A stretch of 37,579 bases of DNA from Dehalococcoidia bacterium. GTDB lineage: Bacteria; Chloroflexota; Dehalococcoidia; Lucifugimonadales; UBA3495. A program made the position numbers and the translations under genes. The DNA lies in assembly GCA_022450395.1 (NCBI GenBank), contig JAKUQE010000029.1, forward strand, positions 1 to 37,579, written 5' to 3'. Under the pieces are notes generated by a model that was given only the letters and a program-made list of their open reading frames with translations, searched no databases and was not told the DNA's origin. Of this stretch, positions 5,826 through 14,137 are shown one piece after another (positions within the stretch are counted from its first letter, which is position 1; each line of letters begins with the position of its first letter).

Positions 5826-7025
5826 CTAGTTCTTTCGCTCGAATACCGCGGCGACGCCTTGTCCTCCGCCCACGCACATGGTTTCCAGGCCGAATTGGGC
5901 GTCGGTGCGTTCCATCTCATGCAGCAGGGTCGTCAGGATGCGGGCGCCGGTGGCGGCGATGGGGTGGCCAAGGGAGATTCCGGATCCGTTGACGTTGAGT
6001 TTGTCGTCGTTGGGCAGTTTCCATTCTCTTAGCACCGACAGGACCTGGGCGGCGAAGGCTTCGTTCAACTCGATGAGGTCCATGTCAGTGAGAGACATGC
6101 CTATCTTTCCCATGACTTTGCTGACCGCGCTGACCGGTCCGATGCCCATGTAGGCCGGATGGCAACCGGTGACGGCCCAGCCTCTCAGGTAGCCCATGGC
6201 CGTCAGCCCCAGCTCTTCCAATTTATCGGCGGCGACGACCAGGCAAACCGAGGCGGCGTCGTTCTGGCTGCTGGCGTTACCGGCGGTCACGGTGCCGTCG
6301 GCCATCACCGGGCGCAGCCGCCCCAAAACCTCCATGGATGTGTCGCTTCTGGGACCCTCGTCTTTATCGAAGGACACTGGGTCGCCACGGCGCTGGGGGA
6401 TGGGAACGGGAACGATCTCGGCGTCGAACTTGCCAGACTCGGAGGCGGCGACGGCCCGTTGGTGGCTGCGCAGGGAATATTCGTCCTGCTCTTCCCGGGA
6501 AACCTCGTACTGCTTGGCCAGGTTCTCGGCAGTCTCGACCATGCCGGAAATGACGCCGAACCGCTCTTCGGGCGAGATCGTCTCCCTGGCTCTGGCCAGC
6601 CGGTCGTGGAAAGTGACCGAGCCGAAGCGGGCGCCCCACCGGGACTCGTTGGAGTAGAACTCGGCGTTGCTCATGCTTTCGACGCCCCCGGCGATGACCA
6701 CGTCGGCGTTCTCCGTTTGGATGAGCATGGCCGCGTTGAGGATGGCCTGAAGCCCGGATGAGCAGCGTCGGTCCAACTGGTATCCGGGCACCTCGATGGG
6801 CAAACCGGCTTTCAGGGAGACCAAGCGGCCGATGGCCGGATTCTCGCCGCTGGGATACCCATGACCCAGAATAACGTCGTCCACCTTCTCGGCGTCCAAA
6901 CCGGCCCGGCTCAACGATTCCTTGATGACGATGCTGCCCAACTCGGCGGCGGAAACATCCCGCATGCCGCCCCCAAAGTTCCCCACAGCGGTCCTGACCG
7001 GTGAAACAATCGCAACTTCACGCAT
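5826..7025 (-). CDS. Acetyl-CoA acetyltransferase (thiolase)
   Basis: A 399-residue protein of normal thiolase length. The acylated nucleophile is Cys88 in RRCSSGLQAI. The second active-site region is NVNGSGISLGHPIAATGAR (His), and the C-terminal Cys lies in MCVGGGQG. A start ATG at 7025 has AGGAG upstream. It cleaves a 3-ketoacyl-CoA to acetyl-CoA plus a shortened acyl-CoA, or condenses two acyl-CoAs. It acts in the cytoplasm in beta-oxidation-type or related degradation. It precedes the GMC oxidoreductase gene (25-nt gap). Substrate chain length cannot be read from the sequence. Confidence 0.95.
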   Translation of the reverse strand: MREVAIVSPVRTAVGNFGGGMRDVSAAELGSIVIKESLSRAGLDAEKVDDVILGHGYPSGENPAIGRLVSLKAGLPIEVPGYQLDRRCSSGLQAILNAAMLIQTENADVVIAGGVESMSNAEFYSNESRWGARFGSVTFHDRLARARETISPEERFGVISGMVETAENLAKQYEVSREEQDEYSLRSHQRAVAASESGKFDAEIVPVPIPQRRGDPVSFDKDEGPRSDTSMEVLGRLRPVMADGTVTAGNASSQNDAASVCLVVAADKLEELGLTAMGYLRGWAVTGCHPAYMGIGPVSAVSKVMGKIGMSLTDMDLIELNEAFAAQVLSVLREWKLPNDDKLNVNGSGISLGHPIAATGARILTTLLHEMERTDAQFGLETMCVGGGQGVAAVFERKN

Positions 7026-7163: not shown

Positions 7164-7442
7164 CTAATAATGCTCCACTTCGGGCCAAGGGTCGTAGAAG
7201 TGGTGGAGCAGGCGGTGCCACTCCTGGTATTCGGGTGAGCCTCGAAATCCATGCGTGCGGTCTTCCAAGGATTCCCAGCTGACCATAAGAATACATCGGT
7301 TGGGCTTATCGAGTCACTTTTGCAACTGGTGGGAGACGTAGCCCTTCATCGACGAGATTAGCGCCTGGGCTAGGGTGAAGGCGGCCTCAAAGTCGTGGCA
7401 CAGGCCGGGCTTTACGTCCAGTATGGCGACTTCCAGCACCAT
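7164..7442 (-). CDS. ABM-domain protein with in-frame UGA at a Cys position (candidate selenoprotein)
   Basis: A 92-residue ORF if the TGA at 7314-7316 (codon 43) is read through. The start ATG at 7442 has AAGGAA upstream. Residues 1-42 (MVLEVAILDVKPG, then ISSMKGYVSHQLQK) and 44-92 (VSWESLEDRTHGFRGSPEYQ, EWHRLLHHFYDPWPEVEHY) together make one full antibiotic-biosynthesis-monooxygenase (ABM, PF03992) protein of normal length, with no indel. From memory, relatives have '...HQLQRCLE...' at this point, so the TGA replaces Cys. It is either a selenocysteine codon or a single nonsense mutation. ABM proteins are small dimeric ferredoxin-like-fold enzymes or heme/quinone-binding proteins. It lies between typA and the thiolase gene on the same strand. 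Confidence 0.7.
7282..7300 (-). promoter_or_regulatory. Possible weak SECIS-like hairpin after the ABM UGA
   Basis: On the minus-strand mRNA, ACC-(G)-AU pairs with AU-GGU around an 8-nt loop GUAUUCUU. The first G of the loop is nt 20 after the UGA. Position and loop G fit a bacterial SECIS, but the stem is short, has a bulge and is AU-rich, far weaker than the hairpins after the other two UGA codons. Alternative pairings exist (AUAAG/CUUAU). This is only suggestive. Confidence 0.25.
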
Positions 7443-7508
7443 CAGAAGTTCCTTTTCATAACAGCGAGACGGATTGGTGGCTCGCCGATGCCCGATTGAG
7501 GCCCGGCT

Positions 7509-9356
7509 CTAAACCGCCCCGGCCCGGTCACGGGCGGAGTTGGCGCGGTGGCGGGAGCGGCCGGATGTGGATAGCACTTTCTTGCGCATGCGGTAGTTTT
7601 GTGGGGTGACTTCCACCAGTTCGTCGGAGGCGATGAAGTCCAGGGCTTCGTCCAAGCTCATCCGGACGGTGGCGTTGAGCCGCCGGGTGATGTCGGCGGT
7701 GGACGAGCGCATGTTGGTCAGGTGCTTTTCTTTGCACACGTTGATGGGGATGTCCCCTTCCCGGCGGTGCGTGCCCACGATCATACCCTCGTACACCGGC
7801 GTGCCGGGGTCGATGAAGGTGTCGCCCCTGCCCTGGGCGTTCAGCAGTCCGTAGGTCACAGCCACGCCGGCCTCCCAGGCCACCAGGACCCCGGTGTTAG
7901 CCGACTTTATCTCCCCCTCCATCCGCCGGTATTCGGTAAAGGCGCTGCTCTGCAGCCCGTTGCCCCGGGTCGTGCGTAGGAAGAAGGATGTGAAGCCGAT
8001 CAGTCCCCTGGTAGGTATCAGGTACTCCAGGTCCACGTTGCCGGCGTCGTCGTACTTCATGTCTACCAGTTGGGCCAAGCGGCCGGAAAGGTATTCGGTC
8101 AGGGCGCCGATGAACTCGTCCTTGGTGGTGATATTTAACCGTTCATAAGGCTCGTGGACCTTTCCATCCACCACCCTGGTCACCGGCTCAGGCTTGGACA
8201 CCTGGAACTCGAAGCCTTCCCGGCGCATGGTTTCCACCAAGATAGACAGATGAAGTTCGCCGCGGCCAGACACCAGGAACACGTCGGTGGTGTCGGTGGT
8301 CTCCACCCGCAGGCTTACGTTGGTCCGAAGCTCGTTCATCAATCGCTCGTAAAGCGTTCGCGACGTGGAATGGGTCCCGTCCTTGCCCATGAAGGGCGAT
8401 GTGTTGACGCCGAAGGTCATCTTGACCGTCGGCTCATCGATGTGGATGGTGGGAAGAGCTTCGGCGCATTCAAGGTCCGTGATGGTGTCGCCGATGGACA
8501 CGTTGTCGACGCCGGTTACGGCGACGATATCCCCAGCTTGGGCCTCCTCTACTTCCGAGCGTCCCAGGCCCCGGAAGACTAACACCCGGTCCAGCTTGTG
8601 GTGGGAGGTCTGACCGTCCCGGCCCAATAAGGTTACCTGGTCGTCCAGGCGGATGGTTCCACGGGATACACGGCCGATGGCGACCTGGCCAAGGTAGTTG
8701 TCATAATCCAGGGCAGCCACCAGCATCTGAAGGGGCGCCTCCGGGTCTCCCGCGGGCGGCGGGATGTATTTCAGTATGGCCTCTAAGAGAGGTTGCATGT
8801 CCTTTGGCTCGTCATTCAGGTCGCTGACGGCGTAGCCGTGGCGGGCCGATGTGTACAGGACGGGAAAGTCCAGTTGCTCGGGCTTGGTGGCCAACTCCAG
8901 GAACAGGTCCTGCACCAATCCGACTACTTCCGCGACCCGGGCCTCGGGACGGTCGGTCTTATTGATAACCACCATTGGGGTGACGTTCTGGCTCAGGGCC
9001 GTCCTCAGGACGTAAGTGGTCTGGGGCATTGGCCCGTCGACGGCGTCAACCAGCAGTAGGCAGCCGTCCGCCATGTTCATGATGCGCTCGACCTCGCCGC
9101 TGAAGTCGGCGTGGCCGGGAGTGTCGATAATGTTGATCTTGACCCCTTTGTAGGTGATGGAGGCGTTCTTGGCCAGGATTGTAATGCCTCTTTCACGCTC
9201 CAGGGGGTTGGTGTCCATGATGAGTTCGCCAACCTGCTGATTGGCGCGAAATACCTGGCTCTGCTTCAACAGGGCGTCGACCAAAGTGGTCTTGCCGTGG
9301 TCCACGTGGGCGATGATTGCCAGGTTGCGTACGCTATTATTGAAGTGGTTTTCCAT
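7509..9356 (-). CDS. typA: TypA/BipA translational GTPase
   Basis: A 615-residue ribosome-binding GTPase. G1 is [10 protein letters not shown], the switch I region has [12 protein letters not shown]3 is DTPGHADF, G4 is NKTD and G5 is TSARHG. EF-G-like domains follow, including a domain V segment with FVSPKPE-like text ([20 protein letters not shown]). The BipA-specific C-terminal domain includes [18 protein letters not shown] and [22 protein letters not shown]. It acts on the 50S subunit in ribosome assembly and stress or cold adaptation. Start ATG at 9356 with GGAG upstream. The length is typical of the family. Confidence 0.97.
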
Positions 9357-10017: not shown

Positions 10018-11357
10018 TTACGCCATGAGGGACGCGGCGGCGTGCTCGGCGGCCAGCATGCCCAACCCTAACGAGGCCAACTGACCGTTGCCCGGCAGGT
10101 AGCCTTCCATCCCTGCTCCGGATACTCCGGTGGCCACCCCGCCCCCGGCGTACAGGTTGGGGATGATGGAGCCGTCGGCGCGCAATACTTGGCCGTCCGT
10201 GTTCACTTTGAGTCCGCCCTGAGTGTGGTAGAGGGCAGCTTTCACTCTTATTCCGTAGTACGGAGCCTTGAATGGCTCCGGCGGAGTGCGCCCGAATCGG
10301 TCCGGCCCCACTCCAGCCAACCCATTGTAATCTTCCACTGTTTGCTCCAAACCTTCGGCGTCGATCCCTAACTTTCCGGCCAGATCCCATGAAGTTAGGG
10401 CCTGGCGCAGCAGCCCCGAAGTGAAGAACTCTTCCAAGTAGTGCGGAAGCAACTCGTACAGCCTTTTATCTAGAATCTCGTACGCCTGCTTGTCCGGAAG
10501 TTGGAGTATCCCGTTGCTGAGTCCACCGGGGTATCTGGTCTCGTCGACGAATCGCTTGCCTTGCGGGTCCACCATGATGCCGCCGGCCATTATCACTTCC
10601 GGCGACACCGACCTCATCCCCGGACCGATGTGGGCGGGATAAGGCTGGAAAGACGCCATGTTCTCAACGGCCGCTCCCACCGTTAGGCCCATCTTTATAC
10701 CATCGCCGGTGCTACCGTGGTGGCCGGGAAAGTGTACGTCCGCCACCGCCGGAATGTACTGGGTCAGGAGCTCTTGACTGGCGCCGAAGCCGCCGCTGGC
10801 GAGGATGACCTTAGCCGCCGGGATGACGCCGCTCTCCGTCGCTACTCCGGTGACCGTTCCATCATCTGCTTGTTGGAAATCCAGCACGGAAGTTGAGAAA
10901 CGCACCTGGATATTCGGTTCCCTTTCAACCGCTTCGTACATGAAATCGGTGATCGTTTTGTCTTCTTTCCAGGAGTGGGGCGGCGGGCGCTATGGCCGAA
11001 AACGAACTCGCCGACGCTGAAATCGATGCGGGCTACGTCGGCCAAGAAGTCGGCGACCGGCCCTGAAACTTCGGCCAGGCGTTTGGTCAGGGCAACGTCG
11101 CTTTCGTTGCTGTTTCTGCCGAAGATGTCTATAGCGTACTGCTCCGGGCTATCGTCGATTCCCAGCGCCCGCTGAAACCTGGACCCGGAGGCGCGGATGC
11201 CCCTGGAAGAGAAGGCGGTGCTGCCTCCCGGCTTGTCCGTCTTCTCCAACAGCAGGACAGAGACGCCCTTCCCCGCAGCCACCAGAGCGGCCATCATTCC
11301 GCACCCTCCGGCGCCGACGATCACCATCCTATCTGTATCGGCGTCTGAGCGCGCCAT
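10018..11357 (-). pseudogene. FAD-dependent oxidoreductase (fumarate reductase/KstD type), one-base frameshift
   Basis: Two overlapping frames together encode a complete family member. Residues 1 to about 130 come from the frame starting at 11357, with FAD motif VGAGGCGMMAALVAAGKG and KPGGSTAFSSRG. The rest comes from the frame ending at 10018, with ASGGFGAS, GGIMVDPQGKRFVDE and the C-terminal FAD-site GVSGAGMEGYLPGNGQLASL. The break is at the G run 10977-10980. Adding one base there restores HSARRPHSWKEDKTITDFMY and a 446-residue protein. The full span is 1340 nt, one short of a multiple of three. The family reduces or desaturates C-C bonds next to carbonyls using FAD. It is either a decayed gene or an assembly error at a homopolymer. 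Confidence 0.8.
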
Positions 11358-13294: not shown

Positions 13295-14137
13295 ATGGAA
13301 CCCCTGCCTGTACTAGACCGTGGATACGCTCATCTAGAGCTACTTGCCGAAACTGATTGGCTCGCCGGCCGCCTCGCCGAACCGATGCTTCGTATCGTAG
13401 ACGCGAGACATCCGGATCAATACGCCGCAGGCCACATCCCCGGGGCAGTCAACTTGAACGGCTTTGGCGGGATTCCCAGAGCGGCCAATGGGGACATGGC
13501 CAGCCCCGATGTGTTCGCCAGTTTGGCCGGCGATCTTGGTATCAGCAACGATACGACCGTCGTCGTATACGACGACCCCAGCCAGACGATGGGCATGGTT
13601 GCCTGGACATTCCTCTATTACGGCCATCTTGACGTGCGTATCCTGGACGGCGGCCTGGCAAAGTGGTCTCGCGAAAATCGGCCAGTCTCAACCGAAATCC
13701 CAGACTATCCGCATGCGGTATTTGTTCCCAAACCACAAGAGGCAATCTATTGCTCGCTGGATCAGGCAAGGGTCGCCGTTGGCCAGCCGAAGACGGTCTT
13801 TTGGGACACGCGTAGCCTGGAGGAATTCCAAGGGACCAGGGCCGGGTTTGGGCCACCAATCAGGATGGGGAGGATCCCAGGCGGGGTCCATCTGGAATGG
13901 AGCGAACTGTTTGAAGAGGACGCGAAGACTCTCAAACCAGCAAAGGAGCTGCATGCTCTTCTCGCGTCACATGGCATCGCCCCTGAATATGAGATCGACA
14001 CTTATTGACACGGTGGCGCGCGGGCGGCGCTCGCGACGATAGTGCTCAAGATTCTCGGCTACGAAAACGCGCAGACCTATGCTGGGTCTTACGCCCAGTG
14101 GGCCGGCCAGGAAGATCTTCCGGTGGAGACCGGGTAG
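13295..14137 (+). CDS. Two-domain rhodanese with catalytic Cys codon replaced by UGA (candidate selenoprotein)
   Basis: A 280-residue sulfurtransferase of the SseA/TST type if the TGA at 14006-14008 (codon 238) is read as Sec. Domain 1 has RIVDARHPDQYAAGHIPGA. Domain 2 has FWDTRSLEEFQGTR and RIPGGVHLEW, then EYEIDTY-U-HGGARAALATIV. In the Cys family this is the TYCxGGxRA active-site loop, so UGA sits exactly where the persulfide-forming Cys belongs. The frame continues with KILGYENAQTYAGSYAQW to a TAG at 14135-14137, as in the intact family. Start ATG at 13295 with GGAGG. Rhodaneses pass sulfur to cyanide or thiols via a Cys-persulfide; a Sec form would use a selenenylsulfide. Divergent from padR. 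Confidence 0.85.
14019..14035 (+). promoter_or_regulatory. Candidate SECIS hairpin for the rhodanese UGA
   Basis: CGCGGGC and GCUCGCG pair in a 7-bp stem (one G-U) around the loop GGC. The loop is nt 18-20 after the UGA and begins with GG. Distance, stem and loop G fit bacterial SECIS elements, and the geometry matches the hairpin after the UGSC UGA within 2 nt. The high GC content of this coding stretch means some pairing is expected by chance. Confidence 0.55.

Follow-up and report, generated by a model that had tools for sequence, protein, structure and literature searches.

The window analysed here (37,579 nt) is one contig (C212) of a metagenome-assembled genome (MAG) that totals 3.99 Mb in 359 contigs and is 79% complete. 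On the minus strand it carries a short frame encoding an ABM-domain protein, interrupted by an in-frame UGA and lying between bipA and a thiolase gene, all three on one common strand. The features at this locus are:

7509..9356, minus strand: BipA/TypA GTPase gene, upstream neighbour of the ABM frame (71–79% DNA identity to same-family copies)
7449..7454, minus strand: AAGGAA, a Shine-Dalgarno-like site 6 nt 5′ of the ABM ATG (read from the sequence)
7164..7442, minus strand: ABM-domain frame, 92 codons plus TAG, with UGA at codon 43 (translation and Pfam)
7314..7316, minus strand: the in-frame UGA, at the site of the subfamily's invariant Cys43 (alignment of the best 80 homologs)
7271..7292, minus strand: best SECIS-like hairpin, AUUCUUA-UGGUCAGC-UGGGAAU, 7 bp including two G-U pairs
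5826..7025, minus strand: thiolase gene, downstream neighbour of the ABM frame (typically 74–81% DNA identity to same-family copies)

The ABM frame starts with ATG at 7442-7440 and ends with TAG at 7166-7164, and the only in-frame stop before that TAG is the TGA at codon 43 (7316-7314; HQLQK*LDKPNR), such that 7442-7164 translates to MVLEVAILDVKPGLCHDFEAAFTLAQALISSMKGYVSHQLQK*LDKPNRCILMVSWESLEDRTHGFRGSPEYQEWHRLLHHFYDPWPEVEHY and then a stop. The initial annotation had described a 92-residue frame uninterrupted save for this UGA, with the local text HQLQK-U-LDKPNR and a good start preceded by AAGGAA; translation bears out each of these points, AAGGAA lying at 7454-7449, and adds the minus strand, which had gone unstated. 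With the stop masked as X, residues 1-77 matched the Pfam ABM model (PF03992) at 46.5 bits against a gathering cut-off of 23.1, a match across the domain that places the frame within the ABM family. Beyond UGA43 the frame is open throughout with a host-like GC3, and a structure model with the UGA read through predicts a beta-alpha-beta-beta-alpha-beta fold.

The homolog set used here came from scanning 84,980 species genomes and consists of the best 80 relatives (Gammaproteobacteria, Cyanobacteria, Anaerolineae, Bacteroidetes, and others), which are intact, 92 residues long, and align to the window copy over their whole length, ungapped, at 62–74% identity. The normal ABM length and lack of indels claimed earlier are therefore upheld. 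All 80 encode Cys at codon 43 (TGT in 50, TGC in 30), as the initial annotation had stated, and the UGA thus occupies the position of a conserved homolog Cys, as is looked for in selenoproteins; this is a point in favour of a selenocysteine (Sec) reading. The Cys-containing subfamily, for which PDB 3gz7 is the nearest solved structure (subfamily profile match 7.5e-19), includes members from an Anaerolineae MAG (L009), Endozoicomonas (L008), and Vibrio (L010). The window copy resembles them in length, start, and gapless alignment but differs in having UGA at position 43 and five further changes at conserved columns.

Closer to the host, we found no close ABM homolog in 197 genomes of its genus, family, and order, where the only other matches were 27–30% identical and carried Ser at the site. 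A class-level search (393 genomes) returned two ABM homologs, in which residue 43 is Cys and Asp, respectively, and a phylum-level search (400 genomes) returned six closer homologs that are intact, Cys being present in every one (the class member L106 counted). A further homolog from the same phylum (L110, G877:C57:11911-12186) is interrupted by TAG at codon 55, which shows that nonsense loss does occur in the ABM family. None of these sets, the best 80 included, held a second sequence with UGA43, and no ABM homolog was found in the viral contigs searched. The check proposed with the initial annotation, for Cys or UGA at this site among homologs, therefore gave Cys in every one of the best 80 and UGA in none. 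Candidate families are expected to have at least two independent UGA-bearing sequences (PMC2398784), and the ABM gene is represented by one; lone UGA sequences of new families are not accepted by the field, as errors cannot be excluded (PMC2398784, PMC1088965), while one recent study lists three families without UGA homologs (PMC12013277).

The bipA and thiolase genes were matched in copies throughout the host's family without an ABM gene between them, the two lying on separate contigs or, where on the same contig, far apart (e.g., G004). Given that the ABM gene has no close counterpart in the relatives searched and that its flanks are not seen side by side there, it was likely acquired horizontally, in a rearranged place between bipA and thiolase.

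The host genome encodes tRNA-Sec (66.4 bits), SelB (352.8), and SelA (549.4), each above its curated cut-off, and this gene content indicates that it decodes UGA as Sec, a second expected attribute of a selenoprotein gene and a further point for the Sec reading. Canonical SelD was not found in the 79% complete MAG; it was present with an in-frame UGA in 18 of the 20 genomes searched. We surveyed 1.25 of the 3.99 Mb for stops flanked on both sides by host-like coding signal; no fewer than eight genes in this sample belong to known selenoprotein kinds, and one of these lies within the window. UGA falls at the active-site Cys in three rhodaneses, two DUF3179 proteins, a thioredoxin-NHL protein, a peroxiredoxin/deiodinase-like protein, and BtuF; this abundance of host selenoprotein genes, like the UGA-bearing SelD genes, again favours the Sec reading. 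Pfam confirmed the domains of the window rhodanese, one DUF3179, and the MFS transporter and archaellin discussed below, and the remaining assignments were made by motif reading. Two near-identical rhodaneses on separate contigs could represent a single gene sampled from two strains. FdhA, considered as a host control, has no in-frame UGA here. The host control genes are:

Window 13295-14137, plus strand: rhodanese/mercaptopyruvate sulfurtransferase-like gene, UGA at 14006-14008, hairpin at 14019-14035
Seven other host genes with in-frame UGA (two DUF3179, thioredoxin-NHL, peroxiredoxin/deiodinase-like, BtuF, and the two near-identical rhodaneses): L197 6676, L283 2105, L250 257, L288 5355, L271 2758, L255 1304, and L260 1891

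The window rhodanese, which by sequence belongs to a known selenoprotein kind, has UGA at its catalytic Cys (DTY-U-HGGARA), and the SECIS-like hairpin that follows is significant. With a standard gene caller, this gene would be cut short at 14008. As in bacterial selenoproteins with Sec/Cys pairs, of which this rhodanese is an example, the ABM UGA takes the place of an invariant Cys and the host decodes Sec. The ABM gene lacks both a significant hairpin, which in the rhodanese directly follows the UGA (p 0.002), and paralogs bearing UGA at the matching site, of which the rhodanese has two.

The best hairpin downstream of UGA43 has an 8-nt loop with G in second position, the loop 28 nt from the UGA, and a folding energy of -7.3 kcal/mol, just short of the -7.5 asked for by the published bSECIS model. 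While this near-model geometry (7 bp, 8-nt loop, spacing of 28) speaks for the Sec reading, the same energy is equalled by 40% of plain shuffles and by 22 of the 80 Cys homologs. Generic bSECIS scoring was rejected as a discriminator, given that ~40% of shuffles pass and the lineage's SelD SECIS elements barely beat synonymous shuffles. In its place, we used an uninterrupted-hairpin statistic in which the protein is held fixed and the downstream codons are recoded by host usage. By this test, no significant SECIS hairpin lies directly downstream of the ABM UGA (stem p 0.33, 50-nt folding energy p 0.91); the initial annotation had named the hairpin, short and AU-rich, as the weak point.

Synonymous recoding gave stem p values of 0.002 (window copy), 0.014, and 0.014 for the rhodaneses, 0.028 for thioredoxin-NHL, 0.004 for the peroxiredoxin-like gene, and 0.000 for BtuF, and thus p ≤0.03 in six of eight host selenoprotein genes. 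The two DUF3179 genes scored 0.51 and 0.18, with better folding energies (p 0.057 and 0.113). Among 18 SelD genes of relatives, re-anchored by motif, 12 had stem p <0.1 and the maximum was 0.27. Two interrupted host genes in which the UGA is apparently at a non-Cys site, a response regulator and an archaellin, have hairpin scores resembling that of the ABM gene. Because the test is imperfectly sensitive, with some known SECIS elements scoring poorly, the result lowers the Sec reading rather than excluding it.

The host-control survey also yielded a second candidate:

G000:C4:2125-3423, minus strand: MFS transporter (L196/L291), UGA at L196 2685, context GYFV-U-GYSMSFVNAHFV

Exactly one in-frame UGA occurs in all 36 MFS homologs from same-order genomes (38–72% identity), at the identical codon in each of the 30 that were read, and distant homologs (30–35% identity) have Cys at the site in 15 of 15. 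In those 30 sequences, TTC and GTG, the codons of the hairpin's 3′ arm and loop, never vary, while all four synonyms occur at a Val codon slightly further downstream. Of the stem pairs, the five inner ones are retained in 29–30 of the 30 sequences, A-U being replaced once by G-C in a compensatory change, and the outermost one (A-U) is kept in only 10. MFS is unnamed in the two selenoprotein family lists consulted, no paper in the collection searched names an MFS selenoprotein, and no NCBIfam model scored above cut-off for the transporter. On these comparative data, the MFS transporter is a strong candidate for a new selenoprotein family, and its evidence is far stronger than that of the ABM gene. 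Furthermore, the lineage Sec families that can be checked, SelD and this transporter, retain UGA across many genomes, which counts against Sec at the ABM site.

We then considered constraint on the ABM protein, taking as conserved those columns ≥97% conserved among the other homologs of the best-80 set. The window copy departs at six such columns (C43*, I28L, E45D, Y50C, H62R, and F86W), with four of the five non-C43 departures lying after the UGA, whereas 61 of the 80 best homologs show no departure and the maximum among them is three. The six intact and more divergent phylum homologs retain all five non-C43 residues, although they also helped define the core column set and are favoured by the comparison; the TAG-bearing copy L110 is broken at three core columns. 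The pattern in the window copy looks like relaxed constraint, and its excess of changes weighs against the Sec reading, though the changes near UGA43 might conceivably be adaptation around a new Sec. Codon usage also drops after UGA43 (one-sided p 0.015), in a test that was chosen post hoc and is weak.

How readily a stop might strike this Cys by chance was gauged from the homologs, each of which offers a mean of 45.9 stop-creating single-base changes, 8.1 of them to TGA and one at C43, so that a random nonsense change lands on C43 about 1 time in 46. A UGA on the invariant Cys by coincidence is notable, not overwhelming. Interrupted genes are otherwise present in the 1.25 Mb sample, with sites read by eye: TAA or TAG interrupts three genes (L252 12801, L284 9117, and L261 12178) whose apparent products are a methyltransferase, a hydrolase, and a protein with coiled coils, and TGA interrupts the response regulator (L263, apparently at Gly) and the archaellin (L195, apparently at Trp). 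This last gene (L195 6690, G000:C3) is an archaellin-like gene (PF01917) in a bacterial MAG. Within the window, 2.6 kb from the ABM frame, a FAD_binding_2 gene is split over two overlapping frames:

10842-11357 and 10018-10941 (10018-11357 overall), minus strand: FAD_binding_2 halves, profile split at ~10842-11000

The split could be either a frameshift or an assembly indel. Nonsense or indel changes, or errors, thus exist in the host assembly, and interrupted genes may, by rough extrapolation, number in the tens genome-wide. About 1 in 46 of them would fall on such a Cys. One chance case per genome is unremarkable, and is just what a scan for UGA oddities selects for. Like the nonsense-interrupted MAG genes and L110, the ABM frame has a single stop, is otherwise open, and lacks a recoding signal; unlike them, its stop is a UGA on an invariant Cys.

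We consider it most probable (roughly 0.83) that UGA43 is an ordinary stop, arising from a nonsense mutation or base error at the Cys codon of a decaying, acquired ABM gene. A gene for a small cytoplasmic ABM-domain protein, probably acquired horizontally, would have been set between bipA and the thiolase gene, and its conserved Cys codon (TGY) would have become TGA. Translation would then terminate at UGA43, leaving at most a 42-residue N-terminal fragment that ends after the second beta strand. The change itself may have arisen in the organism, as a nonsense mutation in a gene undergoing decay, or only in the assembly, as a base error; the extra conserved-site changes favour real decay. Beyond the UGA and the homolog Cys, this reading rests on the observations that no SECIS hairpin reaches significance, that the copy is a singleton in its family, and that changes at conserved sites are in excess. 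Set against it are the placement of the UGA exactly on the invariant Cys, the open frame with a Shine-Dalgarno-like site, a Sec-rich host, and the two DUF3179 selenoproteins of known type that likewise fail the strict hairpin test.

It is unlikely that the ABM gene is instead a functional selenoprotein, in which SelB and Sec-tRNA decode UGA43 as Sec replacing the subfamily Cys, and similarly doubtful that the weak hairpin 28 nt downstream serves as its SECIS. In the structure model, residue 43 directly follows strand 35-42 and residue 50 lies within strand 49-56, near its start, an arrangement consistent with the Sec reading in that the newly gained Cys50, where the following strand begins, could act as a redox partner of Sec43. 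ABM is not among the 87 prokaryotic selenoprotein families of PMC9312934 nor in a 2026 review (PMC13188914), in agreement with the earlier statement that no ABM selenoprotein had been described. There is a small chance that this is the first ABM-family selenoprotein, one that arose when a single lineage recently exchanged Cys for Sec, with a minimal SECIS and the newly gained Cys50 as partner. The earlier proposal of a new family keeps the invariant Cys, the host machinery, and the absence of ABM from published lists; its step to a selenoprotein is not supported, given the insignificant hairpin, the failure to find a second UGA-bearing homolog, and the five extra changes.

Very improbable is a suppressor tRNA reading UGA43 as Cys or Trp, or a 42-residue fragment functional in itself: nothing specific favours either beyond an N-terminal part strongly host-biased in codons, within the 1.25 Mb surveyed tRNA-Sec alone has a UCA anticodon and tRNA-Cys reads GCA, host genes do end at UGA in the usual way (as at L195 11659, which precedes a second acyl-CoA dehydrogenase), and a fragment missing strands 3 and 4 would be unlikely to form the ABM fold. 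Genome-wide reassignment of UGA was rejected, as other genes end in UGA and in-frame cases are few.

As it stands, the case shows that a UGA replacing an invariant Cys, even where the host decodes Sec, is insufficient for a selenoprotein call. Host-matched controls, namely SECIS significance under synonymous recoding and UGA conservation in relatives, separate probable cases from improbable ones; they also brought to light the stronger MFS transporter candidate in this host genome. Were the Sec reading of the ABM gene true, it would bring a new fold class into the selenoproteome and represent a Cys-to-Sec change caught in progress.
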